NCBI GenBank assembly: GCA_012270545.1
Contig: JAAXID010000255.1
Span: 1 to 42,686, forward strand
Source: Anaerolineae bacterium
GTDB taxonomy: Bacteria; Chloroflexota; Anaerolineae; Aggregatilineales; Phototrophicaceae
DNA: 42,686 nucleotides
Direction: 5' to 3'
Within the stretch, counting starts at the first letter, position 1. The number at the start of each line of letters is the position of its first letter. Of this stretch, positions 8,720 to 41,330 are shown one piece after another. A model generated the notes under the pieces. That model had not been told where the DNA came from. It was given only the letters and a program-made list of their open reading frames with translations, and searched no databases. Made by a program: the position numbers and the translations under genes.

Positions 8720-8765
8720 AGGCATTTTGCGTTATACTGAAAATAACGAGTCAATAGGGTGCGCG

Positions 8766-9080
8766 TTGAATCACGAAACGATACTGAATCTGCCGCTGGA
8801 CGCCATCCGCGAATACTGCGCCAAGCAGCCGATTCGGCGCTTGTCCATCTTCGGTTCGGCGCTTCATGGCGATATGCACCCCGAAAGCGACATTGACTTG
8901 CTCGTCGAGTACATGGCCGGCGCCCAAGTCGGCCTAGCGTTCTTTCAACACATGGTTGACTTGAGCGAGATTATCGGCCGCGAAGTTGACTTGCGCACGC
9001 CTGAGGATCTGAGTCGTTATTTCCGAGGTGCGGTTTGTGAGGAAGCGATACCACTCTTTGAAATCCAGCCGGGAGAATGA
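8766..9080 (+). CDS. mntA: MNT-type minimal nucleotidyltransferase (MntA-like antitoxin)
   Basis: RRLSIFGSALHGDMHPESDIDLLVEY: GSx10DxD nucleotidyltransferase motif; small; overlaps a HEPN gene. TTG start at 8766 inferred from a -10-like TATACT inside the longer ORF (8727). Confidence 0.8.
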   Translation: MNHETILNLPLDAIREYCAKQPIRRLSIFGSALHGDMHPESDIDLLVEYMAGAQVGLAFFQHMVDLSEIIGREVDLRTPEDLSRYFRGAVCEEAIPLFEIQPGE

Positions 9081-9423
9081 CCGTATAAGACTGTGCCACG
9101 CGTTAGATGCGGCAGAAAAGGCTCAGCGGTTTGCGCAGGGACATACGCGCGCTTCGCTATCGCAGGACGAAGGTTTGCAGCTCATTCTAGCCCGGTTGCT
9201 GGAGATTCTGGGCGAAGCCGCCGGTTCCGTGTCTCCCGAGTGTCGCTCCAAGTATCCCGACCTGCCCTGGTCTAGCATGAAGGCCATGCGCAACTGGCTG
9301 GCGCACGCTTACTTCGATATCAATCTCGATACACTTTGGAATGTTGTGCAGAATCATATAGTTCCACTGATCGCCCAGTTGGAAGCCATTCTCGCGGCCG
9401 AAAACATCGACTGCTCCGCGTAG
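9028..9423 (+). CDS. hepT: HEPN/DUF86 family HepT-like toxin
   Basis: Contains RNWLAHAY (RX4HXY) and LLEILGEAAGSVS; follows and overlaps the MNT gene. Start codon uncertain. Confidence 0.82.
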   Translation: MRFVRKRYHSLKSSRENDRIRLCHALDAAEKAQRFAQGHTRASLSQDEGLQLILARLLEILGEAAGSVSPECRSKYPDLPWSSMKAMRNWLAHAYFDINLDTLWNVVQNHIVPLIAQLEAILAAENIDCSA

Positions 9424-11325: not shown

Positions 11326-11464
11326 AGTGGTGAATTGCGCAGAATGGATTACATATATTCTAGCATGCCGTACGCGAAAACGGAGCCAGCGAGCCTTCGG
11401 ACTCAACAGCGATACCCGGATGCGGTATGCTGACGGGCAGGCGCGGAATCATGACTACGGCAGG

Positions 11465-12400
11465 ATGAACCAGCATATTCCTATATTGGAACGCGAAGTA
11501 ATCGAGGCTTTGCGCGCCGATGACCCGGCCGTCAAGCGACTGATCGATGGTACGGTCGGCGGCGGCGGTCATACGCTGGCGCTCTTGCGCGCCGGCATCG
11601 AAGAAGCGCTCGGCATCGATCTGGACAGGAGCGCGATCGTCCAGGCCACTGATAGACTATCGGAATACGTTGACCGCGCGCGCCTCGTCCATGGCAGTTA
11701 TATGGCTATGGCGGAGGCGGCAAATGCCTTAGGCTGGGAAGCGGTCGATGCCATTCTGCTGGACCTGGGCACCTCTTCGCTGCAAATGGATGACCCGGAG
11801 CGAGGCTTCTCGTTTCGCTTTGATGCGCCGCTGGATATGCGTTTTGACGAGCACGGTGGCGGCGCCACAGCCCACGATCTGGTCAACGGCTTGTCGGCCG
11901 CGAAGCTCGCGGACCTTTTCTATCGTTACGGCGAAGAGCGGAGCGCGGGCAGAATCGCCGGTGCGATCGTCGAGCAGCGTCCGATTCATACGACACGTCA
12001 ACTGGCTGAGCTGGTGGCGCGCGTCAAGCCCAAACCGGCCCGCCGTTCGACGAAGAGGCATCCGGCGACCAAGGTGTTTCAGGCGCTGCGCATCGCCGTC
12101 AACCGAGAGCTGGAATCGGTCGAGAACGCGCTTCCTATTGCCGTCAATCTGCTCCGACCGGGCGGCCGGTTGGCTGTGATCACCTTTCACAGCCTGGAAG
12201 ATCGTATCGTCAAACAAGCGTTTAGAAAGCTGTCGACCACGGTGACTGCCCCGCCCGGGATGGCTTCCATCGAGGAAATGGTGGCGCAGGTCCAGCGGGT
12301 CAATCGCAAGCCGATCGTCCCCTCACTCGAAGAAGTCAGAGCGAATCCGCGCAGCCGCAGCGCCAAGCTTCGTGTTGTTGAAAAGTTGGAACGGGCTTAA
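11465..12400 (+). CDS. rsmH: 16S rRNA (cytosine(1402)-N(4))-methyltransferase
   Basis: MNQHIPILEREVIEAL...DGTVGGGGHTLALL...LLDLGTSSLQMDDPERGFSF; start chosen at 11465 inside the longer ORF. Confidence 0.95.
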   Translation: MNQHIPILEREVIEALRADDPAVKRLIDGTVGGGGHTLALLRAGIEEALGIDLDRSAIVQATDRLSEYVDRARLVHGSYMAMAEAANALGWEAVDAILLDLGTSSLQMDDPERGFSFRFDAPLDMRFDEHGGGATAHDLVNGLSAAKLADLFYRYGEERSAGRIAGAIVEQRPIHTTRQLAELVARVKPKPARRSTKRHPATKVFQALRIAVNRELESVENALPIAVNLLRPGGRLAVITFHSLEDRIVKQAFRKLSTTVTAPPGMASIEEMVAQVQRVNRKPIVPSLEEVRANPRSRSAKLRVVEKLERA

Positions 12401-12487
12401 TGGCGAGTTGCGAGATATCCCAATCCGAATACATTTGTAAGTATAAAGGACGCTACCGCCGCAGTATCGTAGTTTGCCGTTTTTCGG

Positions 12488-12970
12488 TTGACAGTCAGTA
12501 TGTCGCAGACCTGGTTTCAGCATACATTCAGTCGCAAACGCTTTCGGACGCGCAATCAGGCGACCGCGCTGGCGATACTGGGCATCGCCGTGCTACTGAT
12601 CCTGGGAAGCCTGTATCTATCGCAGGTGGCCTCCTTCGCCATCACCAACCGGAAGATTGAAGACCTGATCAGTCGCCGCGATCAATTGAAGCGCCAGAAT
12701 GAGCAGCTTATCGGCGAGATCGCCAGCTTCCGCACCGTACCACGCCTTTACGCGCGCGCGGTCGAGATCGGTTTTCGTCCGGCGACCAACAGCGACATCG
12801 ACTACCTGTTGATCGAGGGCTACAATCCGCAGCGAGAGCGGGCGCCTTTGGAAATGACAGCGCCGAATCAACTGGACGTAGCGGCGCCGGTTTACGATGA
12901 GACATTTGGCGGCTGGCTGGAGCGGCAATTCAGCCTCCTGCGAGACCAATTCGAATCTTTCGGCAAGTGA
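12488..12970 (+). CDS. FtsL/septum-formation-initiator-like single-pass membrane protein
   Basis: 160 aa; one TM segment (ALAILGIAVLLILGSLYLSQVASFAI) followed by coiled coil; sits between rsmH and the PBP gene. TTG 12488 or ATG 12500 start. Confidence 0.75.
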   Translation: MTVSMSQTWFQHTFSRKRFRTRNQATALAILGIAVLLILGSLYLSQVASFAITNRKIEDLISRRDQLKRQNEQLIGEIASFRTVPRLYARAVEIGFRPATNSDIDYLLIEGYNPQRERAPLEMTAPNQLDVAAPVYDETFGGWLERQFSLLRDQFESFGK

Positions 12971-14736
12971 CGCGAGCCTGCGATCGTATGCAAGGACTTA
13001 GTCCACAGCAATCTACGATTCAAACCAGACTGCCATTTGTGGCCATCTTCCTTATATTGATGGCGGCCTACCTTGTGATCAATCTGGCGAATTTCCAGTT
13101 CTTCCCTAGATCCGTGCGGCAAGAGCTAGAGAAGATCGGCAGCTCGGTCACGAACACGACGCTCCGTGTGCCGGCCGAGCGCGGCCTCATATTTGACCGC
13201 GACGGCGAGCCGCTCGCTTTCAATATCGTCCAGTATCGTCTCGGCGTCAGCCCGGCTCTGGTGAATGATGATGAGGCGCTGATGAAAGAATTGGCGGCGA
13301 TACTGGACGTGGACGAATTCGAGCTATTCATCAAGATCAACAGCGAGAATGTCTGGGAATTCGTTGCCGCTCCGATATCGGCGGAACAAGGACAGGCTAT
13401 CGCGGCGCTGGACGATATCGCTCTCGGTCTGGAAGAGATACCCAAGCGCTTCTATCCGCAAGGGACGCTCGCCGCCCACGTGATCGGTATCGTGCTGGAC
13501 GAAGGGCTCGTCGGTTCGCTCGGCGTCGAAGGCGCCTACAATGATACGCTGTCGGGGCGCGTCCTTGATCTGTCGATCAGCAATGTCCCCTTTGATCTGC
13601 CGGAAGACAGGCCGGCGGAACAGCGCGGCAAGGATATCGTGCTGACGCTGGACCGTGATGTGCAGTTTTGGGTCGAGAGTGAACTAAAAGCGGCCGTGGA
13701 GGAATACAAGGCTTACCGAGGCACCGTTGTCGTGATGGATCCGCGCAATGGCGATGTCCTGGCGCTGGCCAACTACCCCACCATGGATCCAAACCGATTC
13801 CTGGAAATCGAAGATCCAAGCCTATTGGAGAATCCTGCAGTCCAGGATCTATACGAGCCGGGCTCGATCATGCAGGCGCTGACGGTCGCAAGCGCGCTCG
13901 AAAGCGGTGCGATCAGCCCCTATTGGACCTACAATGACACCGGTCAAATCGAAGTGGGCGGGCAGGAAATTTTCAATCGACACTTTCAGGCGCATGGCAC
14001 TGCGGATGCGGCGACAGTCCTGATCCGCTCGCTGAATGCGGGCGCGACGACCATTGCGCTGGAAATGGGCACAGCGCAGTTCTATAGCATGATGCGCGCA
14101 TTTGGACTCGGCCAGCCTACCGGCGTCGGTCTCTTCGCGGAAGAAGCGGGCGAGTTGAAGATCCCCGGGGATACAAACTGGAGCGAGAGTTATCTCGGAT
14201 ACAACAGTTTCGGTCAGGACCTCCAAGTAACATCAATGCAACTAATCACTGCCTTTAGCGCGCTGGCCAATAACGGCATCATGCGGCAGCCGCGCATCGT
14301 CCGCCAGGTAATCGGAGAAGAGGGCGCGGAGGAGGCGCGTCCCACAACCGTTCGTCGCGTCGTTTCCTCAGAAACCGCGGCAATCGTCAGAGATATGATG
14401 ATCCGTGTGGTGCGCGAAGGCGCGTCCGGCGCATTCATGCGTGGTTATACCGTCGCTGGCAAACCGGGAACCGCCTGGATATCGACCGCGGTCGGTCAAG
14501 AATACGGCGAACATTCAACAATTGTAAGCTTCGTTGGCGCCGTGCCGGCATATGACCCACAAGCGGTAATCCTGGTCAAGCTGGATCGGCCCAAAGAATA
14601 CTACGGTCACGCTGTCACCCCTCACATCTTCAAGAAAATTGCAGACCGTCTTGTGATTCTGCTCGAAATACCGGATGATGAGGTCCGCGGTCGCCTCGAA
14701 GCAGCCAAATCCGACGTCAACACAGACGGAAGCTAG
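12967..14736 (+). CDS. FtsI/PBP2-like penicillin-binding protein with altered catalytic motifs
   Basis: 589 aa; N-terminal TM, RGLIFDRDGEPLAFN dimerisation domain, transpeptidase fold. SxxK position reads EPGSIMQ, SxN is SLN, KTG position is KPG. Confidence 0.9.
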   Translation: MTRACDRMQGLSPQQSTIQTRLPFVAIFLILMAAYLVINLANFQFFPRSVRQELEKIGSSVTNTTLRVPAERGLIFDRDGEPLAFNIVQYRLGVSPALVNDDEALMKELAAILDVDEFELFIKINSENVWEFVAAPISAEQGQAIAALDDIALGLEEIPKRFYPQGTLAAHVIGIVLDEGLVGSLGVEGAYNDTLSGRVLDLSISNVPFDLPEDRPAEQRGKDIVLTLDRDVQFWVESELKAAVEEYKAYRGTVVVMDPRNGDVLALANYPTMDPNRFLEIEDPSLLENPAVQDLYEPGSIMQALTVASALESGAISPYWTYNDTGQIEVGGQEIFNRHFQAHGTADAATVLIRSLNAGATTIALEMGTAQFYSMMRAFGLGQPTGVGLFAEEAGELKIPGDTNWSESYLGYNSFGQDLQVTSMQLITAFSALANNGIMRQPRIVRQVIGEEGAEEARPTTVRRVVSSETAAIVRDMMIRVVREGASGAFMRGYTVAGKPGTAWISTAVGQEYGEHSTIVSFVGAVPAYDPQAVILVKLDRPKEYYGHAVTPHIFKKIADRLVILLEIPDDEVRGRLEAAKSDVNTDGS

Positions 14737-14748
14737 GCGCCAGGAACC

Positions 14749-15774
14749 ATGGACGGGCAATTACCACTGGCGCTCAGTGTAGGCGGCGCGACCTTTTTGC
14801 TCGGTGTCATCTGGGGCGGTCCCTTCGTCGAGATCTTGCGCCATTTCAATCTGGGCAAGCAGATCCGCGCCGAGCTGATGGACAGCCACCATGTGCGGAA
14901 GATCGGCACGCCGACCATGGGCGGCATCATGATAATCCTGCCGGCCATCGCTGTCACCTTAGCGCTCAATATCTCACGCATCGTCGAAGTAGGCGAAGGG
15001 CGCAGTATCCTTCTGCCGCTAATAGTGCTGATTGGCTTTGCCTTGCTCGGCTTGATTGACGATTGGGAGGGCATTCAGACCTCGCGCGGCAACGTGGGGG
15101 AAGGGCTCTCGGGCAAGATGAAGTTCGCCTTGCAAATTCTGTTGGCTTTAGGCGCGTCGACGGTCATTTCTTATTTCGAGTTTTCCTTTGCCAATAGTTT
15201 GGAGCTGCCGCTGATCGACGCGAAGATTCCCCTTCATCCCCTGCTCTTCATTTCGATCAGCACCTTCATTATCGTGGCGACCTCCAATGCGACCAATTTC
15301 ACCGATGGGCTGGACGGGCTGGCCGGCATCATTACCGCCAGCGCTTTCGGCGCATACGGTGTAATCGCCTTCTTGCAGGATCAGATCTACATGGTCGAAC
15401 TGTGTTTCGTTATCGTGGGCGCCTGTTTCGCCTTTCTCTGGTATAACGCGCATCCGGCGCAGCTGTTCATGGGCGATACGGGCTCGCTGGCTTTGGGCGC
15501 CACCCTGGGCACGGTCGCGGTGATGACGGGGCAATGGCTTCTCCTGCCGATCATCGCTATCGTACCCGTGATGGAAATCTTGAGCGTGATTCTGCAAGTC
15601 GCCTCCGCCAAGCTGAGCCGGCGTTTTTATGGCGATGATATTCGGCCTTTCCGCCGCACGCCGATCCATCATCACTTCGAATTGGGTGGCTGGAGCGAAA
15701 CGCAGATCGTGCAGCGCTTCTGGCTGATCGGCATTCTCAGCGCATTCGTCGGCGTCGCTCTCGCGCTCCTGTAA
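14749..15774 (+). CDS. mraY: Phospho-N-acetylmuramoyl-pentapeptide-transferase
   Basis: GTPTMGGIMIIL, NATNFTDGLDGLAG, FMGDTGSLALG, RRTPIHHHFE motifs. Confidence 0.96.
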   Translation: MDGQLPLALSVGGATFLLGVIWGGPFVEILRHFNLGKQIRAELMDSHHVRKIGTPTMGGIMIILPAIAVTLALNISRIVEVGEGRSILLPLIVLIGFALLGLIDDWEGIQTSRGNVGEGLSGKMKFALQILLALGASTVISYFEFSFANSLELPLIDAKIPLHPLLFISISTFIIVATSNATNFTDGLDGLAGIITASAFGAYGVIAFLQDQIYMVELCFVIVGACFAFLWYNAHPAQLFMGDTGSLALGATLGTVAVMTGQWLLLPIIAIVPVMEILSVILQVASAKLSRRFYGDDIRPFRRTPIHHHFELGGWSETQIVQRFWLIGILSAFVGVALALL

Positions 15775-15861
15775 ACAGTTCCGCAAATCGCCGCTCAGTT
15801 TCAGCTCGCTGATTCACTGGGTATCTGGCGCGCTGGCATCATGTCGCAAAAGTCCAATCCA

Positions 15862-15867
15862 CTATAA
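15862..15867 (+). promoter_or_regulatory. Candidate -10 element upstream of murD
   Basis: TATAAT in ccacTATAATtgaaac, about 50 nt before the likely murD ATG at 15917. Confidence 0.45.
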
Positions 15868-15916
15868 TTGAAACTGCTTGCTCGCTTGCGTTAGCGATAG
15901 AGGCAGCTGCGCAAAT

Positions 15917-17326
15917 ATGGTTGAACGAGACTCCCTGTCTGGCAAAAAGGTCGTCGTCTTCGGTTTCGGCCGCCAAGGCAAGGCGCTGGCGCGCTGGCTG
16001 CCCACCGTGGGCGCCGATGTCGCGGTGACGGACAGCCGCAGCGCCAAGGAGCTGGGATTGCGCCGCCGCGAATTTCCGGGCGTTCGCTTTCATCTTGGCG
16101 GGCACCCGGAAGATGTCTTGATCGGGGCGCGCTGCATCTGCGTTTCTGGCGGCGTCCCGCTGGACATGCCCGTTCTGCAGTTGGCGCAAGAGCGCGGCAT
16201 ACCCTTCACCAACGATGCGCAGCTTTTCCTCGAGCGCTGCCCGGCGCCCGTTATTGGCATTACCGGCAGCGCTGGCAAGACCACCACCGCCGCTTTGGTG
16301 GCGAGTATCGTGGAACGAGCGGGCTACAAGCTGTGGCTGGGCGGCAATATAGGCAATCCGCTTATCGAAGAGCTGCCGAACATCAGCGCAAATAATATCG
16401 TCGTCATGGAGCTTTCCAGCTTTCAATTGGAGTTGATGACGGCAAGCCCGCAGGTCTCCGCAGTACTCAATCTGACGCCAAACCACCTCGACAGGCACGG
16501 CAGTTTTGAGCACTATGCCTCCGCGAAAGCCAACATTTTGCGCTACCAGCGAACGAGTGACGTGGCGGTGCTCGGCTGGGATGACGCAGGCAGCCGGGCG
16601 CTGGAGCAGATCGTGGAGAGCGAGCTGCTGGCTTTCAGCCGCTACGAGATGGTGCCGCATGGCGCCTTCATGCTGGGCAGTCGGCTTCTCGTCGCGGGGT
16701 CGGCCAGTTATGACGCGAGCCCCCACGTCGTCTGCGAGCGGGAGGACATCCCCTTGCGCGGCGAACACAATGTCTTGAACGCCCTGGCCGCCTGCGCCAT
16801 CACCGGCTCGATGGGCTTGGCGATCGACCGACCGGGCGTCATGCCGGAAGTGATGCGCGAGGCGATTCGCAGCTTCACACCGGTCGAGCACCGCCTGGAA
16901 ACCGTGCGCGCCCGCAATGGCGTCACCTGGGTGAACGACAGCATCGCCACGGCGCCGGAACGCACCCTGGCCGCGCTCGCCAGTTACGATGAGCCGCTCG
17001 TGCTGCTGATTGGCGGCGCGGACAAAGACCTGCCTTGGGAGACGGCGCTACAGTTTGCCTTGCAGAAGGCGCGGCACATCATCGCCTTCGGCGAAGATGG
17101 CGACAAGCAAGTGGCGACAAAAGTGATGAAACTGCTATCGAAGATGCGCGTCGGCGACGAACAGGTTTCGCGTGCGCGGACGCTGGCCGAAGCGGTGAAA
17201 AGAGCGACGGAAGTAGCCAAATCTGGCGATGTCGTGTTGCTATCGCCCGGTGGGACAAGTTACGACGCCTACACCGATTTCGCCGAGCGCGGGGAGCACT
17301 TTCGCCAATTGGTATCTCAACTATAA
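15917..17326 (+). CDS. murD: UDP-N-acetylmuramoyl-L-alanine--D-glutamate ligase
   Basis: VVVFGFGRQGKALARWL, GITGSAGKTTTAALV, LNLTPNHLDRHGS, LSPGGTSYDAYTDFAERGEHFRQLV (MurD C-terminus). Confidence 0.94.
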   Translation: MVERDSLSGKKVVVFGFGRQGKALARWLPTVGADVAVTDSRSAKELGLRRREFPGVRFHLGGHPEDVLIGARCICVSGGVPLDMPVLQLAQERGIPFTNDAQLFLERCPAPVIGITGSAGKTTTAALVASIVERAGYKLWLGGNIGNPLIEELPNISANNIVVMELSSFQLELMTASPQVSAVLNLTPNHLDRHGSFEHYASAKANILRYQRTSDVAVLGWDDAGSRALEQIVESELLAFSRYEMVPHGAFMLGSRLLVAGSASYDASPHVVCEREDIPLRGEHNVLNALAACAITGSMGLAIDRPGVMPEVMREAIRSFTPVEHRLETVRARNGVTWVNDSIATAPERTLAALASYDEPLVLLIGGADKDLPWETALQFALQKARHIIAFGEDGDKQVATKVMKLLSKMRVGDEQVSRARTLAEAVKRATEVAKSGDVVLLSPGGTSYDAYTDFAERGEHFRQLVSQL

Positions 17327-17449
17327 TAGACCTCATAACCCAGCCGCCGGTAGCCACTCGACGGCAAAGAATCGGTCCGCCGCGACCAGTTGAATCAATG
17401 AGACATCAACTCTCCTGCGCAGCGCGGCTTACGTATAAGAAAGGATGGC

Positions 17450-18772
17450 ATGACCGACCGAATCAACCATGACGCCAGGCAGCGTCGATTCCGCCGCAGG
17501 ATTCGACGGGGCGCCGGGGTCTCAGTCGTCAACGACGAGGGCCTCCGCCCAGCCATAGCTCAGAGGCGGCAGTTTCTGGCGACGCTGGATAAGCCGCTGG
17601 TGGCGGTCGTCGTTCTGCTGCTGGCCATTGGCTCTTTGATGGTATTCAGCTCCACCTGGGACTGGAGTAACGAGACTTATGGCAACGCCAGCGGTTTCTT
17701 CGTCGAGGAGCACCTGCGCAATGTCGTGCTGTCGGTCATTGCGCTGGTATTCTTCGCGGCGGTAGATTATCGTTTTTGGAAGCGATTCGCTATATGGCTT
17801 CTTCTGCTGACGGTCGTGCTGCTGGTCGCCGTGCTGGTATTCGGAGAAAAAAGATGGGGCGCGCAGCGATCTTTCATCGGCGGCCGCCTTCAGCCAGGCG
17901 AGTTGGCGGAGTTCACCATCGTGCTTTATATGGCGGCTTGGCTCGGCTCCAAGAATGCGAAAGTGGACAGTGTTCTGCAGGGCATGCTGCCATTCCTGAT
18001 GGTGGTCGGCCTGGTCGCCGCTTTGATTATAAGGCAGCCGGACTTGAGCTCAGCCGCAATTGTCGTATTGACGGCCGGGGTTATGTTTTTCGTGGCTGGC
18101 GCCAATATGCTTCACATAGGAGCAGTGGTTGGATTGGCCGGCGTCGTGGGCATAGTCGTCGTGGAGAGCCGGCCCTACGCGCAGCAGCGCATCGCCGACT
18201 TTCTGGCCGGTTTCAGCGATGTCACCTTGTCAGATTACCATACGCTGCAGGCGATAACCGCTTTTCTGCGCGGAGGCTGGATCGGCGTCGGCATCGGCCA
18301 CTCAGAGCAGAAGTTCGGGGCGCTGCCGGCGCCGCATACCGATAGTATTTTCGCCATCATCGGCGAGGAACTTGGCGTCTTTGGCGCGGCTATCGTGGTC
18401 GCGCTTTACATCGTCTTCGCCATTCGCGGCTTCCAATTAGCCCGCCGGGCTAAAGACAACTTCGGGTCACTGCTCTGCGTCGGTTTCACCTCCTGGGTGA
18501 TCATTCAGGCGCTGCTGAACATCGCCGTGATGACGGGCGCGGTGCCTTCCACCGGCGTGCCATTGCCCTTCATCAGCTTTGGCGGATCGTCACTGATGGT
18601 GGTGATGATCGGCGTCGGACTGATGCTGAGTGTCTATCGCGTGGCGACGCGGCGAAAATCGACTGTGGAACGGAGAAGAGATATTGCGAGTTTTGATCGG
18701 AGCTGGCGGAACCGGCGGGCACGTCTATCCCGCGCTGGCGACCGCCCAAGCGCTGTTGCGGGACAACAGTGA
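17450..18772 (+). CDS. ftsW: Peptidoglycan glycosyltransferase, FtsW/SEDS family
   Basis: Multi-TM; DYRFWKR, TDSIFAIIGEELGVFGA, TGVPLPFISFGGSSLMV signatures. C-terminal tail overlaps murG by ~89 nt. Confidence 0.93.
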   Translation: MTDRINHDARQRRFRRRIRRGAGVSVVNDEGLRPAIAQRRQFLATLDKPLVAVVVLLLAIGSLMVFSSTWDWSNETYGNASGFFVEEHLRNVVLSVIALVFFAAVDYRFWKRFAIWLLLLTVVLLVAVLVFGEKRWGAQRSFIGGRLQPGELAEFTIVLYMAAWLGSKNAKVDSVLQGMLPFLMVVGLVAALIIRQPDLSSAAIVVLTAGVMFFVAGANMLHIGAVVGLAGVVGIVVVESRPYAQQRIADFLAGFSDVTLSDYHTLQAITAFLRGGWIGVGIGHSEQKFGALPAPHTDSIFAIIGEELGVFGAAIVVALYIVFAIRGFQLARRAKDNFGSLLCVGFTSWVIIQALLNIAVMTGAVPSTGVPLPFISFGGSSLMVVMIGVGLMLSVYRVATRRKSTVERRRDIASFDRSWRNRRARLSRAGDRPSAVAGQQ

Positions 18773-19787
18773 GGCGCACGAACTGCACTTCGTGGGCGCG
18801 GTGGGTGGCATGGAGCGAAAGCTGGTCCTGGAATCGAAGCTCGAATTCGTCAGCTACCATGAAGTTCTTGCGGGACCCTTGCATGGCGTCAATCCGCTGC
18901 GCGCCGCTATCAGCCTTTTCAAGTTGGGCATCGGTACCATTCAGTCGCTGGTCAAGCATTTGCAGATCCGTCCACAAGTTGTCTTGCTGACGGGTGGCTG
19001 GGCGAATTTGCCGGTGGCCGCGGCCGCGCGCCTTCTTGGCATTCCCAACGTGATATACCTGCCCGATATCGAGCCGGGCTTGACGATCACGGTCTTGCAG
19101 CGCTTCGCCCGCAGAATCGCCATCACTGTCGAAGCATCAGCGCAATTCTTGCCGCGGGGGAAAACTGTCGTCACCGGATATCCCTTGCAGGAGAACCGCC
19201 TGAAGGCCACACGTGAAAAGGCGCGCGAACACTTCAAGCTGGACGCCAGACGCAAGACGCTGCTCGTTTTCGGCGGCAGTCGCGGCGCGCGCAACATCAA
19301 CATCGCGCTGGGCGCCTGTCTCGGGCGCCTGCTCGAAGATGGCGTCCAGATCCTGCATATTACCGGCGAACTGGACTGGGAGCGCGCGCTGCGAGAGGCG
19401 GGCGAATTGAAGGAGCACGCGGATTATCACGCTTTCCCATACCTTCACGCTGACATGGGTTTGGCACTTGCCACCGCCAATCTGGCGCTTTGCCGCGCGG
19501 GCGCCAGTACGCTGGCGGAGCTGCCGCTCTTCGCGCTGCCGGCGATTCTCGTGCCCTACCCCTACGCCTGGCGCTATCAGAAGGTGAATGCCGATTACCT
19601 CAGTGATCGGGGCGCGGCGATACGCCTGGATGACGAGGATATGCCTGACAAACTGCATCAGGCCATCTCGACTCTCATCCATGACGATGCACGTCTGAGC
19701 GAGATGAGCGAACGGTCGCGCGCGCTGGCCAATTCCGATGGCGCTGCCGCGCTGGCGCGTCTGCTGATCGAAACAGGCGCGAACTGA
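18684..19787 (+). CDS. murG: UDP-N-acetylglucosamine--undecaprenyl-phosphate-muramoylpentapeptide transferase
   Basis: RVLIGAGGTGGHVYPALATAQALL, FGGSRGARNIN, CRAGASTLAEL motifs; TTG start inferred at 18684. Confidence 0.94.
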   Translation: MRVLIGAGGTGGHVYPALATAQALLRDNSEAHELHFVGAVGGMERKLVLESKLEFVSYHEVLAGPLHGVNPLRAAISLFKLGIGTIQSLVKHLQIRPQVVLLTGGWANLPVAAAARLLGIPNVIYLPDIEPGLTITVLQRFARRIAITVEASAQFLPRGKTVVTGYPLQENRLKATREKAREHFKLDARRKTLLVFGGSRGARNINIALGACLGRLLEDGVQILHITGELDWERALREAGELKEHADYHAFPYLHADMGLALATANLALCRAGASTLAELPLFALPAILVPYPYAWRYQKVNADYLSDRGAAIRLDDEDMPDKLHQAISTLIHDDARLSEMSERSRALANSDGAAALARLLIETGAN

Positions 19788-19788
19788 G

Positions 19789-20337
19789 ATGCTGGAGTTG
19801 GCGACGCTGGTCTGGGGCTTTGTCCTGGCCTTCGCCGCGGTCGGGCTTGGACGCGGCTGGACCAAGGAAATAATCGCGCTGGCGGGCATCATGTTGGGGC
19901 TATTCGCGCTGCACCAGTTTGACAGCGCCATTCGCGAGCAATTGCTGGTCAATTTCTCCTCGCAGGTCAAGTTTTTGTTTCAAAGCGCGATACTGATGAT
20001 CATCGCCTTTTTCGCCTATCAGACTCGCGCGCTGGTGGGCAACCGCGCTCAAGACGAGCCTGACGTAACGGGGCGCGACGCCCTACAGTCGAAGGCGCTG
20101 GGTGGCATCGTCGGCGCAGTTAATGGCTATTTGCTTAGCGGCTCTATCTGGTATTTCATGCACATCAATGACTATCCCTTGTCGCCTTATATCGAAGCGC
20201 CGGCGATCGGATCCTTGAGCTTGAGCACAGTAAATAATCTGCCGCTATATGTGCTGGCGGGCGGACCGGGGGCGCCGGGCGACTTGCTTTCTCTGTCGGT
20301 CATCGGCCTGTTCATCATTGTGTTGGTCTTGATTTAG
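19789..20337 (+). CDS. Uncharacterised multi-pass membrane protein (CvpA-like), paralog A
   Basis: 182 aa, several hydrophobic segments; shares RGW.KE, QFDS, NGY.LSGS.WYF..INDYP with the next gene. Confidence 0.75.
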   Translation: MLELATLVWGFVLAFAAVGLGRGWTKEIIALAGIMLGLFALHQFDSAIREQLLVNFSSQVKFLFQSAILMIIAFFAYQTRALVGNRAQDEPDVTGRDALQSKALGGIVGAVNGYLLSGSIWYFMHINDYPLSPYIEAPAIGSLSLSTVNNLPLYVLAGGPGAPGDLLSLSVIGLFIIVLVLI

Positions 20338-20357
20338 AAGCATGCTTGGTCTCGCTC

Positions 20358-20885
20358 ATGATTAGCCTGTCATCTCTGATGTGGACGACCGCCATATTCT
20401 TCGCGCTGACGGGCGCGCTGCGCGGCTGGCATCGAGAATTAGTCGGCACGACAGGAATACTGCTGGGCTTCTTCGCCATCTTCCAATTCGACAGCCTTTT
20501 GCGCGGCAGCCTCTATCTACTGCTGACCGACGAACAGACCTTCCTGCTGCAGATGGCGGCTCTGCTGGGGATTGCCGTCATTGCTTACCGCAGTCGGCTG
20601 GCCACCCGCGACCTTGAAGGAACCGGCCGAGTACGGAACATGGTGTTTGGCGCGCTCGTCGGCTTCTTCAACGGCTACATCCTGGCTGGTTCTAGCTGGT
20701 ATTTCCTGGACATTAATCGCTATCCCTTTTGGCAGCTGTTGTCGGCGCCGGCCGACGCGTCGGTCAGTTTCCTGGGCGCCGGCGCGCTGCCGATCGTTGT
20801 GCTCGGCGGAGGCTTGGCCGGGGGCGGGAGCTTGCTACCAATCGCCGTTCTCGTCATTCTGGCGCTTGTCGTCATGATCATCTGA
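20358..20885 (+). CDS. Uncharacterised multi-pass membrane protein (CvpA-like), paralog B
   Basis: About 175 aa; tandem paralog of 19789-20337 (RGWHRE, QFDS, NGYILAGSSWYFLDINRYP). ORF track starts at 20346; the internal ATG at 20358 is also possible. Confidence 0.72.
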   Translation: MISLSSLMWTTAIFFALTGALRGWHRELVGTTGILLGFFAIFQFDSLLRGSLYLLLTDEQTFLLQMAALLGIAVIAYRSRLATRDLEGTGRVRNMVFGALVGFFNGYILAGSSWYFLDINRYPFWQLLSAPADASVSFLGAGALPIVVLGGGLAGGGSLLPIAVLVILALVVMII

Positions 20886-20925
20886 AGCGGTCGCCGTACT
20901 CGAATCAGGAAGGCATTCGGACAGC

Positions 20926-22308
20926 ATGTTGCAGTTGGCGCCCGGGCAGCGCATTCACTTCATCGGGATCGGCGGCGCCGGTCTCTCGGCAATCGCGCGT
21001 ATTTTGCTGGAGCGCGGCTACGCGGTCAGTGGCTCGGACTTAAGAGGCAGCGCGCTCACAGCGGCATTGGCAGAGAATGGCGCGCGCGTCTACATTGGCC
21101 ATGACGCTCGCTATGTACAGGGCGCGGATATCGTGCTGGCGACATCGGCCGCCCCGCCTGACCACGTCGAGATTGAGGCGGCCGAGGCGCAGGCCATCCC
21201 CATCTTCAAGCGCCAGGCCTTCATGGCTGCGATCCTGCGCGACTGCGATACGATTGCGGTTGCCGGCACCCACGGAAAAACGACCACGACATCAATGATC
21301 ATCCATATCTTGCAGCGCGCGGGAAAAGATCCGAGTTTCATCGTCGGCGGCATCATGGCGAATACGGATCGGAACGCGGGTGTTGGCAAGGGACCGTCAT
21401 TCGTCATTGAAGCCGATGAGTACGACAATATGTTTCACGGGTTATATCCAAATCTCGCCGTCATCACCAATGTGGAGCATGATCATCCCGATTTCTTCAA
21501 AACGCCGGCGCAGACGCGGGCCGCTTTCCAGACCTTCGTCAATACGATGGCGCCTGACGGACCTCTTGTCGCTTGCGCGGACGACGCCGAGACGCTATCA
21601 ATCGCCGAGGCGCGTCAGGCCGACGAGGGCAATGTGACGACTTACGGCATTCATAATGCGGCAGCGGAATGGCGAGCGACGGATTTGTGCTTCGACAGCG
21701 AGACGGTCAAAGCCCGAATTTCGCATCATGGTTTGCCGCGGGCGGAGCTGAGGCTGAGCGTTCCCGGCAGGCATAATGTGCTGAATGCACTGGCCGCCTT
21801 GGTCGCCGCGAGCAAACGTGGCGTCAGCCCCGAGGAAAGCGCCCAAGCGCTCGCAAGTTTCCGGGCGACCGCGCGCCGCTTTGAGATTCGCGGAGAGCGC
21901 GATGGCCTGATCGTGGTCGACGATTACGCGCACCATCCCACCGAGATTCGGGTCAATATTGAGGCGGCGCGGCTGCGTTATCCCGAGCATCAGATCTGGG
22001 CGATCTGGCAACCACACACTTACTCTCGTGTTCAACAGTTCTGGTCAGGCTTCCTTAAGGCATTTGAGGGCGCCGACCGGGTGCTGGTTACGCCGATTTA
22101 CGCCGCGCGCGAAGAGCCGCTCGAAGGCATAACCGGCATTGCTCTGGTTAAAGCGATATCGGCGTATGGCGCGGTCGCCTATACACCCACATTTGACGAT
22201 GCCGTCGAGACCTTGCGCCACTCCGCCCGCGCTCCAGCCGTCGTGCTGATATTCAGCGCGGGCGATGCCAATCTCATTGCGGACAGATTCCTCGCAGGGG
22301 GGTCATGA
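20926..22308 (+). CDS. murC: UDP-N-acetylmuramate--L-alanine ligase
   Basis: IHFIGIGGAGLSAIARILLERGYAVSGSD, AGTHGKTTTTSMI, DDYAHHPTEIR, QPHTYSR motifs. Confidence 0.96.
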   Translation: MLQLAPGQRIHFIGIGGAGLSAIARILLERGYAVSGSDLRGSALTAALAENGARVYIGHDARYVQGADIVLATSAAPPDHVEIEAAEAQAIPIFKRQAFMAAILRDCDTIAVAGTHGKTTTTSMIIHILQRAGKDPSFIVGGIMANTDRNAGVGKGPSFVIEADEYDNMFHGLYPNLAVITNVEHDHPDFFKTPAQTRAAFQTFVNTMAPDGPLVACADDAETLSIAEARQADEGNVTTYGIHNAAAEWRATDLCFDSETVKARISHHGLPRAELRLSVPGRHNVLNALAALVAASKRGVSPEESAQALASFRATARRFEIRGERDGLIVVDDYAHHPTEIRVNIEAARLRYPEHQIWAIWQPHTYSRVQQFWSGFLKAFEGADRVLVTPIYAAREEPLEGITGIALVKAISAYGAVAYTPTFDDAVETLRHSARAPAVVLIFSAGDANLIADRFLAGGS

Positions 22309-23231
22309 GGCTCTTGCCGGCGCTGGATGCGGCTTCGATAGATGGGCTGCAGGAAATGCAGTCGCTGGCGCGCTATACGGCCGCTCGCCTCGGTGGACCG
22401 GCTGATTATCTTTACATCGCAAAGAACCCCGACTACAAGGACACGCTCGAGCTCCTGCAATTGGCCTGGAAGCAGGATCTTGCGGTAACCGTCATCGGCG
22501 GGGGCGCCAATATCCTGGTGTCTGACGCCGGCATCCGCGGCTTGACCATCATCAATCGGGCGGCGCAAATCGAGCGAGAGGGCGCCGGCGACGAGGCGCT
22601 GATCACCGTCAGCAGCGGCGCCAACCTGATTCGTTTGTCGCGCTATTGCCAGGAACAGGGATTGGCGGGCCTGGAATGGGCGATTGCTGTGCCCGGCAGC
22701 GTGGGCGGCGCGGTGGTCAACAACGCCGGCGCGCACGGCAGCGATATCGCCAGTACGTTGACACGCGCGCTGGTCTTTGAAGCGGGACATGGAGAGCGCT
22801 GGTATGGGGTCGAAGATCTCGACTACGCTTACCGCTATTCCCGGCTCAAGGGACGTGCCGATCGACGCTACTTCATCAAGCGAGCGCAATTCCAACTGCG
22901 GCGCGACGACCCACAGTTGATACAGGCGCGGATGGCGTACAACAACGATTATCGGCGCCGCACCCAGCCGCCGGGCGCCAGTCTTGGCAGCATCTTCAAG
23001 AATCCAACGGGAGACTACGCCGGACGCTTGATAGAAGCGGCAGGCTTAAAGGGCCTGCGCGTCGGCTCTGTGCAGGTTTCCCCCATCCACGCCAATTTCT
23101 TCGTGAACATTGACGACGAAGCCAGCGCTCGCGATTATTTTGAACTCATTCGCCAGGTTCGCGAACGGGTTGAAGAGGCTTTTGCTGTTCGGCTAGAGCT
23201 GGAGATTCAGACCCTCGGCGAATGGGACTGA
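22305..23231 (+). CDS. murB: UDP-N-acetylenolpyruvoylglucosamine reductase
   Basis: [55 protein letters not shown] motifs; ATGA overlap with murC stop. Confidence 0.95.
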
Positions 23232-23329
23232 TATTGCGCCCCAGGCGGTTTGCGCTGAATTTTGAGCGACTGTAAACTGAATATCGTACTGAGCGACGGT
23301 TGCATTAAGCTACCTTTGGAAGACCCTGA

Positions 23330-24163
23330 GTGGCAAGTCATGTTCAGGCTCACAGACGGCAAGCGGAACGTGCGCCCGGCGTGTTGCATCGGGCTGCGCC
23401 CGGTACCGTGCCAAAGCGAACGGCGCCGGCGCGCAGTGAGCGGAGCCGCGCTTTTTTACGCTGGCGCGCCTCCAGCGCCATCATGTTTGTGCTGTTCAGC
23501 GCCATATTAGTTTCATTCTTTACCAGCGACGTCTTTTATGTGCGGTCGATTCAAGTGCGGGGGAACAATCACATCACGCGCGAGGAGGTATTCGCCTTTT
23601 CCGATATCGCCGATTATCACATGTTCTGGTTGGATCCAGAGCAGATCCGTCAGAGCGTCTTGCGTTCATCGTCGATCGCCGATATCACCGTTGAGCTCGG
23701 CTGGCCGCCTAACTTGATCACCATCATCGTGCAAGAACGGCAGCCCGCCATCGTTTGGTCGGACGCCGGCGCGGAAACATGGATTGATATTCAAGGGCGA
23801 GTGATGCGCGCCCGGGTGGAGATGCCCAATCTGCTGCACGTCAATCTGCTTTCGGACAGTGATGACGGCCCGAAGCCGCGCCCGGAAGACTTCAGCGGCG
23901 ACATGGTATTGGGTGCGCTGCGGCTGAAGGAAATTCTGCCCGCAGGCGAGCACTTGAGTTTCCATCCTATACACGGTCTGGGCTGGACCAATGAATTGGG
24001 TTGGCAAATATGGATGGGCAGCGATTCAGCGGCGGTCATGAGCGAGAAAGTCACAATGTACAATGTGCTGCTGGAGAATATAAACAGCCGCGCGATTCCT
24101 ATCGCCGAATTGAATATCGCGAATCTCGATGCGCCGTTCTACAGGATTTTATGGGGGCTATAG
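23330..24163 (+). CDS. ftsQ: Cell division protein FtsQ/DivIB (POTRA domain)
   Basis: Basic N-terminus, single TM, FYVRSIQVRGNNHITREEVFAFSDI POTRA, VQERQPAIVW; between murB and ftsA. Confidence 0.85.
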   Translation: MASHVQAHRRQAERAPGVLHRAAPGTVPKRTAPARSERSRAFLRWRASSAIMFVLFSAILVSFFTSDVFYVRSIQVRGNNHITREEVFAFSDIADYHMFWLDPEQIRQSVLRSSSIADITVELGWPPNLITIIVQERQPAIVWSDAGAETWIDIQGRVMRARVEMPNLLHVNLLSDSDDGPKPRPEDFSGDMVLGALRLKEILPAGEHLSFHPIHGLGWTNELGWQIWMGSDSAAVMSEKVTMYNVLLENINSRAIPIAELNIANLDAPFYRILWGL

Positions 24164-24169
24164 ATCGAC

Positions 24170-25405
24170 ATGGGTGACTTAGTTGTAGGCCTTGATGTTG
24201 GCACTCACAAGATTTGCACAATCGTTGGCGAGGTGCGTCCCGAAGATGTTTATGTCGTCGGCTTAGGCATCGAGCCGAGCGACGGGATGAAGAAAGGCGT
24301 TGTCAATGATGTTGGCGCGCTTTCCGCCGCCATTGCCAAGTCGGTCCGCAAGGCGGAGAAGTCCAGTGGTTATGATATCAACCGCGCCTTCGTCAGCGTG
24401 GCGGGCAGCCATATTTCTTCACTGACCAGCCGCGGGCTGGCGACCATCGTCGGTTCGCGCAGCGTGGGACCAGAAGACCTTGACAAGGCGATGAGCGTCG
24501 CCCGCAATATCGCGATTCCCCATAACCGCGAGATCCTGCACGTCGTGCCGCGCAGCTATACACTGGACGGGCAAGAGGGCATACGCAGCCCACTGGGCAT
24601 GCATTGTTTTCGGCTCGAAGTGGACGCCCATATCATCACCGCCTCGACGACGAGCCTGGCCAATCTCGAAGATGCGGTGGAATCGGCCGGCGTGCTGGTC
24701 GATCGCTTCATCCTGAATCCGCTGGCGGCCGGCGACGCCGTCTTGACCGCTCACGAACGCGAGATGGGCGCTGTGGTCATCGATATCGGCGGCGGCACAA
24801 CTGACCTCGCCATCTTTATTGACGGCACCGTGTGGCATACGGCGATCATCCCGGTGGGCGGCAGCCACGTTACCCAGGACATCACCTACTGGATGCGCGT
24901 TCCCTTCGGCCTGGCGGAACAGGTCAAGATTCAGCGCGGCCATGCCGATATGAATGCGGTTAGCGAATCAGAAGTCTTCCCGGTCGAGCCATTCGGCGGC
25001 GAAATATTGCCGGTGTCGCGGCGCGATTTGGCAATGGTGATCGAAGCGCGTTTCGAGGAAATCTTTGAGCTGGTGGAGAAAGAAATCAAACGCTCGGGTT
25101 ATGCAGGCCTTTTGCGAGCGGGCGCGGTCATCACGGGTGGCAGTTCTCAATTGCCCGGGTATCGCGATCTGGCGTCGCGAATCCTGAATGTGCCGGTGCG
25201 TTTGGCGCACCCGGAGAAGATCACCGGCATCGCCGACACGCTCAAGAATCCAGCCTACAGCACCAGTGTGGGTTTGCTGCGTTTGGGGCTGGAGATGGAC
25301 GCGATGGTCGAACCCGAGGTTGTCGACTCGATGGGCATCCCGGTGAACCAGTGGGGCCGCCGAATGAACGAGATTTTGCGCCGATTTCTGCCGCAGGATG
25401 ATTGA
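24170..25405 (+). CDS. ftsA: Cell division protein FtsA
   Basis: VVGLDVGTHKICTIVGEV, VVIDIGGGTTDLAIF, GAVITGGSSQLPG; C-terminal amphipathic RRMNEILRRFLP. Confidence 0.96.
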   Translation: MGDLVVGLDVGTHKICTIVGEVRPEDVYVVGLGIEPSDGMKKGVVNDVGALSAAIAKSVRKAEKSSGYDINRAFVSVAGSHISSLTSRGLATIVGSRSVGPEDLDKAMSVARNIAIPHNREILHVVPRSYTLDGQEGIRSPLGMHCFRLEVDAHIITASTTSLANLEDAVESAGVLVDRFILNPLAAGDAVLTAHEREMGAVVIDIGGGTTDLAIFIDGTVWHTAIIPVGGSHVTQDITYWMRVPFGLAEQVKIQRGHADMNAVSESEVFPVEPFGGEILPVSRRDLAMVIEARFEEIFELVEKEIKRSGYAGLLRAGAVITGGSSQLPGYRDLASRILNVPVRLAHPEKITGIADTLKNPAYSTSVGLLRLGLEMDAMVEPEVVDSMGIPVNQWGRRMNEILRRFLPQDD

Positions 25406-25472
25406 GATTTCATGTCGACAATTGATGTGAATTATTGCCTCATATTTGATTTGCGCATGCTGGCAATCCGCG

Positions 25473-25478
25473 TACAAT
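25473..25478 (+). promoter_or_regulatory. Candidate -10 element upstream of ftsZ
   Basis: TTGCGC-16 nt-TACAAT, with the first ATG (25485) exactly 7 nt after the hexamer. Confidence 0.4.
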
Positions 25479-25537
25479 GAGCAAATGAACGAGCCGTACA
25501 CGTTGGTTTGACGTGCTGATTCACGAGGGTATACATT

Positions 25538-26776
25538 ATGGTCAATGATTTGATAACAGGGGAAAACTTCGCGCAGATCAAAGTTGTTGGCGTTGGCGGC
25601 GGGGGTGGAAATGCCGTCAATCGCATGATCAACGAAGGTCTGGGCGGCGTCGAGTTTATTGCCGTAAACACCGATAACCAGGCTCTGATGCTGTCCAAGG
25701 CGAAGACGCGCGTACGTATCGGAGACAAGCTGACGCGCGGGCTTGGCGCCGGCGGCAATCCGGAGATTGGGCGCAAGGCAGCCGAAGAGAGTTCGGAAGA
25801 TCTGCTCGAGGTGCTGCGCGGCTCGGACATGATCTTCGTCGCCTGCGGCATGGGCGGCGGCACCGGCACTGGCGCCTCGCCAGTCATCGCCCAGATCGCC
25901 AAAGAGCTCGGCGCGCTGACCATCGGCGTCGTGACCCGCCCCTTCACCTTTGAGGGCACCCGCCGGGCGCAATTGGCCAAGACAGGCATTGAAGCGCTGA
26001 AGAGCCAGGTCGATACGCTCATCGTCATCCCGAACGATCGTTTGCTGCAGATGGCGGATAAGCGCTCGACGCTGCAACAGGCTTTTTCACTGGCGGACGA
26101 TGTGCTGCGTCAAGGCATACAGGGCATTTCCGAATTGATTACCGTACCCGGTTTGATCAACCTCGATTTCGCCGATGTGCGCACGGTGATGTCCGAAGGC
26201 GGCGCCGCCTTGATGGCGGTGGGCCGCGCGGCTGGCGACGATCGGGCGAGGTCGGCAGCCGAGTTGGCGATCACCAGCGGGCTGCTTGACGTCACCATTG
26301 ACGGCGCCCGCGGCATCCTGTTCTCGATAACGGGTGGCGCTGACCTGACGCTGTTCGAGGTCAACGAGGCGGCCGCCATCATCAAAGACAGCGCGCATCC
26401 GGAATGCAACCTCATCTTCGGCGCCCACATCGACGAAAGCATGGGCGATGAGGTCCACATCACCGTCATCGCCACTGGATTCGAGCGCAGTCGCTTGGAG
26501 ACCACCATGCAGGAAGCGGGCACGCTGCCAATTCGTCAGTCGACGCCACTGCCGCAGCCTCCGTCGGTGCAGCGGCCGATCTATGAGGATGTGGAAGTTC
26601 AGGCGCCCGGTGAAAACGCGGCGGCCGGCGGTGGATCGGGTTCGTCATCGCCGTTCCAGCGCAATCGTCTCGCCCCGCCTTCTCCGCCACAGGACGATCC
26701 GCGGACCTACGACAACATCGACCCCAAGAACACCGAGCTGCCGGCCTTCCTGCGGAAGCGCAATCGGCGTCAATAA
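25538..26776 (+). CDS. ftsZ: Cell division protein FtsZ
   Basis: [33 protein letters not shown] tubulin signature, C-terminal [13 protein letters not shown]. Confidence 0.98.
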
Positions 26777-40055: not shown

Positions 40056-41330
40056 TCAACAGGGCCGCATGGTACGGATCTCCTGGTTGTTCCTATAGCG
40101 GTACAGATTGTAGGGATCTTCTTTGCTTCCACGCGGTAATCCAGCGGGTACGCATCCCGTCAGGGCATTCCCCGCGAGGAACAGACTCGTCAGATTCTCA
40201 AGGATTCCCAAAGCGGTGGGTATTTCCCCCGAAAGTTGGTTGTGGCTCAAGTCCAGAGAGTTCAAGCTGGAAAGGTCCCCAAGTGAGCTGGGTATTGCCC
40301 CTGAAAGTTGGTTGTAGCTTAAGTCCAGTGAATTCAAGCTGGAAAGGTCCCCAATTGAACTGGGAATTTCTCTGGAGAGCCGGTTGTTGCCCAGATGCAG
40401 TCCTTCTAGGTCAGATAGATTGCCAAGTGATTGGGGTATCTGTCCCTCGAGTTGGTTGTCATTTACATTTAGAAGTCTCAAGTTGGGAGGGACTCCCTCG
40501 TCCATTGGTATCCCTCCAGTTAGCTGGTTGCCAGCCAGCGTTAGAACCTTCAGCCTCTTGAGATTGGCCAGAGAGGGCGGTATCTCTCCGGAGAATTGGT
40601 TGTACCCCAAGTCTAATCTCTCTAGGTTGGTGAGATTGCCCAGAAAAGGCTGTATCTCTCCGGAGAGTTGGTTGCGGGCTAAGTCCAAAATCTCCAGACT
40701 TGTGAGGTTACCAAGAGAGTACGGGATCTCTCCAGTCAGCTGATTCCCACCCAAATGATTCCCACCCAAATCCAATTCCCGCAGGTAGGTTAGGCCACCC
40801 AGGGACGGCGGGATACTCCCCCTGAGCACGACTTCTTCTATGTGACAGTGATCGCTCCCTGGAGGAGAGCAGCTGACATGCGAATACGGTTCTATATTTA
40901 TGCCTACGACGCGGCTTTCGGAGACATCGATGCCGTTCCAACTCGTGACGGGAAACCGAGGGCTCCAACCTAGTTCGTACGTAGGAAGATGGTACCAATT
41001 GGGGTCGTTTACTCGTCCAACTAGAGTGTCCATGGCGCCCAGCAGGATTGCGCAGTCTCTAACTAAGTCGGGGTTCTCTTCGGAGTTTGGCACAGCAAGG
41101 CCTTTGGAGCACGCCTCTATGTCGGCAGGAGAAGGATCGGGAACAGGGATTGGCGTTGGTGTGGGAGTGGGTGCAGGTGTAGCAGTAGGGGCAGGCGTGG
41201 GTGTAGGTGCCGGACTGCATACGGCGGCGGACAGGAGAAGCGCAGTAGTGGCCAGCACGCTAAACAGTGCACGGGTGTTGTGAACACTACGCCTAACGTC
41301 TCTCGGAGTCTTCGTGCTATCGTGGCACAC
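40056..41330 (-). CDS. Secreted/anchored LRR protein with plant-type (LxGxIP) repeats
   Basis: Hydrophobic N-terminus, Pro/Thr-rich linker (PAPTPTPAPTATPAPTPTPTP), then about 9-10 LRRs such as SSLGDLSSLNSLDLSHNQLSGEIP. Start codon uncertain. Confidence 0.85.
   Translation of the reverse strand: MCHDSTKTPRDVRRSVHNTRALFSVLATTALLLSAAVCSPAPTPTPAPTATPAPTPTPTPIPVPDPSPADIEACSKGLAVPNSEENPDLVRDCAILLGAMDTLVGRVNDPNWYHLPTYELGWSPRFPVTSWNGIDVSESRVVGINIEPYSHVSCSPPGSDHCHIEEVVLRGSIPPSLGGLTYLRELDLGGNHLGGNQLTGEIPYSLGNLTSLEILDLARNQLSGEIQPFLGNLTNLERLDLGYNQFSGEIPPSLANLKRLKVLTLAGNQLTGGIPMDEGVPPNLRLLNVNDNQLEGQIPQSLGNLSDLEGLHLGNNRLSREIPSSIGDLSSLNSLDLSYNQLSGAIPSSLGDLSSLNSLDLSHNQLSGEIPTALGILENLTSLFLAGNALTGCVPAGLPRGSKEDPYNLYRYRNNQEIRTMRPC
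40742..40771 (-). repeat. Exact 15-bp tandem duplication within the LRR gene
   Basis: gattcccacccaaat x2; gives in-frame GGNHLGGNQL. Confidence 0.9.
41150..41215 (-). repeat. Low-complexity Pro/Thr linker-coding tract
   Basis: ggcgttggtgtgggagtgggtgcaggtgtagcagtaggggcaggcgtgggtgtaggtgcc. Confidence 0.8.

Follow-up and report, generated by a model that had tools for sequence, protein, structure and literature searches.

The best described counterparts of the protein analyzed here are the FtsI/PBP3 division transpeptidases, such as PBP3 of P. aeruginosa and the FtsI subunit of the FtsWIQBL complex (PDB 8bh1). The extent to which catalysis by a division class B PBP can be dispensed with has been studied in a few bacteria. 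In B. subtilis, the inactive variant PBP2B(S309A) supports division, but the cells then cannot do without PBP3, which belongs to the MecA_N proteins and is related to PBP2a of MRSA (PMC5656894). In C. difficile, the catalytic activity of SpoVD is partly dispensable for asymmetric division, to which PBP3 contributes non-catalytically (SpoVD(S311A)/PBP3, PMC12713402), and division is carried out by a class A PBP (PMC10693644). In MRSA, PBP2a replaces PBP2 but not the activity of the division enzyme PBP1 (PMC7617827), a caution that not any MecA-type protein may do the septal job. Our searches of open-licence papers did not turn up a catalytically dead FtsI that is naturally fixed.

We analyzed positions 1 to 42,686 of contig JAAXID010000255.1 of an Anaerolineae bacterium, hereafter the window, which carries a complete-looking dcw cluster in which murB was assigned by position and sequence alone. 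The features on which the analysis bears are the following:

11327..26776, + strand: dcw cluster with rsmH, ftsL, ftsI, mraY, murD, ftsW, murG, two cvpA-like genes, murC, murB, ftsQ, ftsA and ftsZ (domain matches, position, synteny)
12488..12970, + strand: ftsL-like gene 5' of ftsI (position and synteny; without a Pfam match)
12967..14736, + strand: ftsI, encoding an inactive-looking class B PBP (ORF, PF03717 and PF00905, orthologs, AF2 fold)
13864..13875, + strand: SxxK position, S300-I-M-Q303, lysine replaced (sequence, alignment to solved FtsI)
14029..14037, + strand: SxN position, S355-L-N357, kept in the window protein and lost in 13 clade members (clade alignment)
14461..14469, + strand: KTG position, K499-P-G501, threonine replaced (sequence, alignment to solved FtsI)
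17450..18772, + strand: ftsW, a SEDS glycosyltransferase with an intact PAPHTDSIFA motif and the presumed partner of FtsI (PF01098, motif)

Other features of the window include two tandem CvpA-like membrane proteins between murG and murC (19789-20885), a nucleotidyltransferase and HepT-like pair at 8727-9423 that is likely a toxin-antitoxin (MNT/HEPN) module, and a secreted-looking leucine-rich-repeat protein on the minus strand (40056-41330), of interest given that the organism is presumed to be a sponge symbiont.

The 589-residue ORF is a class B PBP, and by descent, fold and synteny it represents the genuine FtsI of the dcw cluster in this lineage: the Pfam domains PBP_dimer and Transpeptidase are both matched above cut-off, the N-terminal membrane helix and the dcw position are present, and in the protein tree it groups with the catalytically intact, or live, FtsI of a sister taxon. 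An alignment of relatives suggests that the ATG at 12988, where most related proteins begin, is the likelier start. An AF2 model built from 16 sequences reached a pLDDT of just 60.7, and we relied instead on one using 95 homologs (pLDDT 87.6, pTM 0.80), in which a single N-terminal membrane helix spans residues 13-43. Among PDB structures, SpoVD of C. difficile and PBP3 of P. aeruginosa match this model best, followed closely by the FtsI chain of FtsWIQBL, and the predicted structure thus keeps the FtsI/PBP3 fold. When the protein is aligned residue by residue with solved FtsI chains of P. aeruginosa, Q303 falls on the lysine of SxxK and P500 on the threonine or serine of KTG/KSG. Serine 300 is encoded by TCG (13864-13866) and Q303 by CAG (13873-13875), while K499 (AAA, 14461-14463) and P500 (CCG, 14464-14466) give KPG followed by threonine. 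The window protein therefore has neither SxxK nor K(T/S)G and retains only SxN among the motifs of active class B transpeptidases.

An FtsI match was found in 61/61 genomes searched, weak or partial in two order-level genomes. In one clade of the window's genus, the SxxK lysine is absent from 33/33 orthologs (31 Gln, 2 Leu), as is the KTG threonine (27 Pro, 6 Ala), and none has KTG or KSG. The sole other member of the genus, UBA6055 (G033), carries SVMK/SLN/KTG, and 60 further relatives retain SxxK and KTG/KSG, with KSG in three and a small number of other residues between the S and N of SxN. In a tree of 90 proteins, the 33 inactive FtsI sequences form one clade (SH-aLRT 100), sister to UBA6055; thus, one origin suffices and the loss maps to a single branch. 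A DNA pattern for [YF]-E-P-G-[ST]-x-x-Q had no match in 398 other Chloroflexota genomes sampled, and a related, slightly broader DNA pattern with K matched 78 of 121. Outside the clade, one FtsI (L198, JAPKMU010000294.1, 11-1150) reads SIFN with SLN and KTG intact, reflecting either an independent loss or an error, as the contig has a coverage of 1.5. Clade members are probably mostly sponge-associated: many derive from metagenome series, and the prefixes RHO, COS, CAR and APA suggest a link to the sponge species of PMC8163846. The genus itself is probably GTDB UBA6055.

The initial annotation of this DNA had read SIMQ for SxxK, KPG for KTG and an intact SLN; all three are borne out at the codons given above and reflect neither an error nor one decaying gene. 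The check it proposed on close orthologs came out in its favor, since all 33 in the clade carry neither SxxK nor KTG. It treated the case as a single homolog, and while the motif loss is real, its scope is wider, being a fixed property of a 33-species clade. Likewise, the retention of SxN is correct for the window protein but does not extend across the clade, where N357 is lost in 13/33.

Compared with the FtsI/PBP3 transpeptidases, the clade FtsI has the same fold, domain order and dcw position beside ftsL, together with ftsW, but lacks the SxxK lysine and the KTG threonine. The closest parallel is with B. subtilis PBP2B(S309A)/PBP3, which also joins a non-catalytic division class B PBP to an intact MecA_N class B PBP; the genome of the window encodes an intact MecA_N-domain protein of this kind, as a B. 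subtilis-like backup would require. However, the dead PBP2B allele was engineered in the laboratory, whereas the loss in the clade is natural, fixed and under purifying selection, and the dependence on PBP3 is shown in B. subtilis, whereas a dependence of the clade on its MecA-type PBP is proposed here. SpoVD is similarly a dcw-encoded class B PBP with partly dispensable catalysis, although it is naturally catalytic and sporulation-specific, and its PBP3 helper acts without catalysis. PBP2a (mecA) illustrates a MecA_N class B PBP that provides transpeptidation when the native PBP is inactive, but there the native enzyme is inactivated by a drug and the one replaced is PBP2, not PBP1.

We consider it probable that the clade FtsI is a transpeptidase pseudoenzyme, kept as a scaffold of the divisome and a partner of FtsW, while a different enzyme acting in trans makes the cross-links. 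The SxxK lysine is the general base in PBP acylation. Without it and the KTG threonine, FtsI would not be expected to be acylated by D-Ala-D-Ala stems or beta-lactams, and we infer from the sequences that it turned into a pseudoenzyme once, in the ancestor of the 33 species. The membrane helix, pedestal and transpeptidase fold are kept, and the protein most likely persists for its part in divisome assembly and in holding FtsW or activating it allosterically; FtsW would polymerize septal glycan, and another transpeptidase would supply the cross-links in trans. This reading draws on the fixed loss of single origin, purifying selection, relaxation of the active site, intact neighbors and intact MecA-type PBPs. 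In the subgroup that includes the window, where S300, S355, N357 and K499 all survive, weak residual activity is possible. The initial annotation had proposed a transpeptidase-dead or altered-mechanism homolog, with inactivity as an inference, and a structural role in the divisome; the clade-wide loss of the SxxK lysine and KTG threonine lends weight to the former, and purifying selection, an intact dcw cluster whose FtsW also looks intact, and further class B PBPs in the genome with intact motifs to the latter.

The gene neighborhood bears on whether FtsI still serves division at all. The order rsmH-ftsL-ftsI-mraY-murD-ftsW is kept in the listed related genomes as far as their contigs reach, and the PxPHTDSIFA motif of FtsW is intact in every clade member with a readable FtsW. 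FtsI could have lost its division role and be used elsewhere, with a class A PBP making the septal wall, similar to C. difficile, whose dcw-encoded synthases function in sporulation (PMC10693644). Each genome does encode two class A PBPs with intact motifs, but ftsI still sits in the dcw cluster beside ftsL, ftsW and ftsQAZ are intact, and no sign of a new process was seen, which makes this explanation unlikely.

Relaxation of the sequence is focused on the catalytic site. Conservation reaches 95% or more at 83 sites among 61 live proteins, and 69 of these sites still reach it among the 33 clade proteins. The 14 released sites comprise five that are strongly released (K303, T500, G418 of the GQG motif, Y511 and M267) and nine that are partly so (S300, N357, K499 and six others), and they include five of the seven motif residues (hypergeometric P = 0.001). 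Relative to the rest of the domain, the divergence of the active-site shell is 0.94 in the clade versus 0.51 in live FtsI, and the transpeptidase/pedestal rate ratio is 1.33 versus 0.76; for both comparisons, pairs are non-independent and no P value is given. Release of constraint is thus concentrated at the FtsI active site. Further losses differ among clade lineages, with S300T in four, K499M in three and N357 changed to Asp, His or Arg in 13, which argues against a new conserved chemistry. The drift of catalytic residues in a protein otherwise held fits a loss of catalytic constraint with the protein retained. Two clade-specific residues, R440 (from Met) and A508 (from Pro), are fixed in 33/33 inactive proteins and are unexplained.

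These patterns make decidedly unlikely an altered-mechanism transpeptidase, in which S300 would still be the nucleophile and K499, or a water placed by Q303, would replace the lysine as base. Such a mechanism would account for the retention of S300 in 29/33 proteins (with a conservative Thr in the other four), S355 in 32/33 and K499 in 30/33, and for a glutamine fixed in 31/33. Yet no position compensates clade-wide, K499 has become Met in three proteins and Q303 Leu in two, N357 is gone in 13, and the active-site shell is without its extra constraint.

Pairwise NG86 dN/dS values for the inactive ftsI genes range from 0.05 to 0.13 (0.04-0.13 in the transpeptidase domain), indicating strong purifying selection on the gene. 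Slow decay as selection relaxes could explain why the rate of the transpeptidase domain relative to the pedestal is somewhat higher than it is in live FtsI. This reading is nevertheless very improbable: the dN/dS values contradict it, the frames are essentially full-length and 69/83 conserved sites are kept through a 33-species radiation. We also considered ftsI as a pseudogene and rejected this on dN/dS and open frames. The chance of a sequencing or consensus error in the window assembly is practically negligible: each change lies within one base of a codon for Lys or Thr, but equivalent changes occur in 33 species from several separate metagenome projects, and with 32 other genomes carrying them, the refutation by assembly error envisaged in the initial annotation fails.

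If FtsI is a pseudoenzyme, its substitute should be encoded in the same genomes. The PBP inventory of the window's genome (G000) consists of the inactive FtsI, a PbpA-like protein, MrdA (SVWK/SCD/KTG, split across two contigs), two class A PBPs and MecA_N class B PBPs of types A (contig C270) and B (C51 and C52), both with intact motifs. A second FtsI-type PBP with SxxK was not found in the PF00905 inventory of this and 13 other draft genomes. MreB, MrdA and RodA are present, which points to a probably conventional elongasome. All the genomes have intact class B PBPs of the MecA_N type, and type A occurs in 33/33 inactive-FtsI genomes (in two pieces in one, G004), with SVMK/SCN/KTGT invariant in the 30/30 read. 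Type A was not found in the one draft genome of UBA6055, whose single MecA-type gene is type B. Of the closest outgroups with live FtsI, L169 and L171 carry type A (51-52% identity) and L207 gives a type-B-level match only; type A therefore predates the FtsI motif loss and was always retained after it. This retention fits a pre-adaptation model, the association with FtsI loss being weak, as it depends on one sister genome. The best candidate for the substitute would be the MecA_N type A protein, which in G000 neighbors cytochrome oxidase genes, a division link not being seen. Type B, the two class A PBPs or L,D-transpeptidases (YkuD), of which each clade genome searched has three to four genes, could equally cross-link. 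The near-identical type B proteins on C51 and C52 (L220 and L076) stem either from a recent duplication or from mixed strains in the MAG, for which contamination is 5.8%.

FtsI is not the only motif-less PBP in these bacteria. The 468-residue PbpA-like class B PBP (P0002; G000 contig C127:4811-6214, L071:312-1715) has GTMY at SxxK, and its gene adjoins a third SEDS gene near an FhaA-like gene. Neither the lysine of SxxK nor KTG is present in any of the 30 orthologs first read (29 from the genus and one from the family; L079-L108) or in a further 15 relatives from across the order (L238-L252). Like the clade FtsI, P0002 is thus a class B PBP without SxxK and KTG, in its case adjoining a SEDS gene, but its loss is older and order-wide, and the gene was not detected in five members of the clade. 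In this order, the pairing of a SEDS gene with an adjacent motif-less class B PBP is apparently long established, with FtsI as a second, later instance.

A bolder proposal, to which we give slightly less than an even chance, is that the clade has permanently split its division synthase, with FtsI an obligate pseudoenzyme that would only activate FtsW and a separate MecA-type PBP that would perform septal cross-linking. If true, evolution would have stably separated what FtsI does as a scaffold from what it does as a catalyst, and this in an order whose PbpA-like SEDS neighbor would be catalytically dead too. The prediction is that division is independent of FtsI acylation. MecA-type PBPs would then be possible natural septal cross-linkers beyond Firmicutes. 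The roles of FtsI as an enzyme and as an allosteric partner of FtsW have until now been probed with engineered point mutants, and here 33 species offer a natural experiment. Because constraint persists outside the drifting catalytic residues, the positions conserved in the clade should be enriched for non-catalytic functions, such as FtsW activation and divisome contacts, and they provide a map that is testable in model bacteria.
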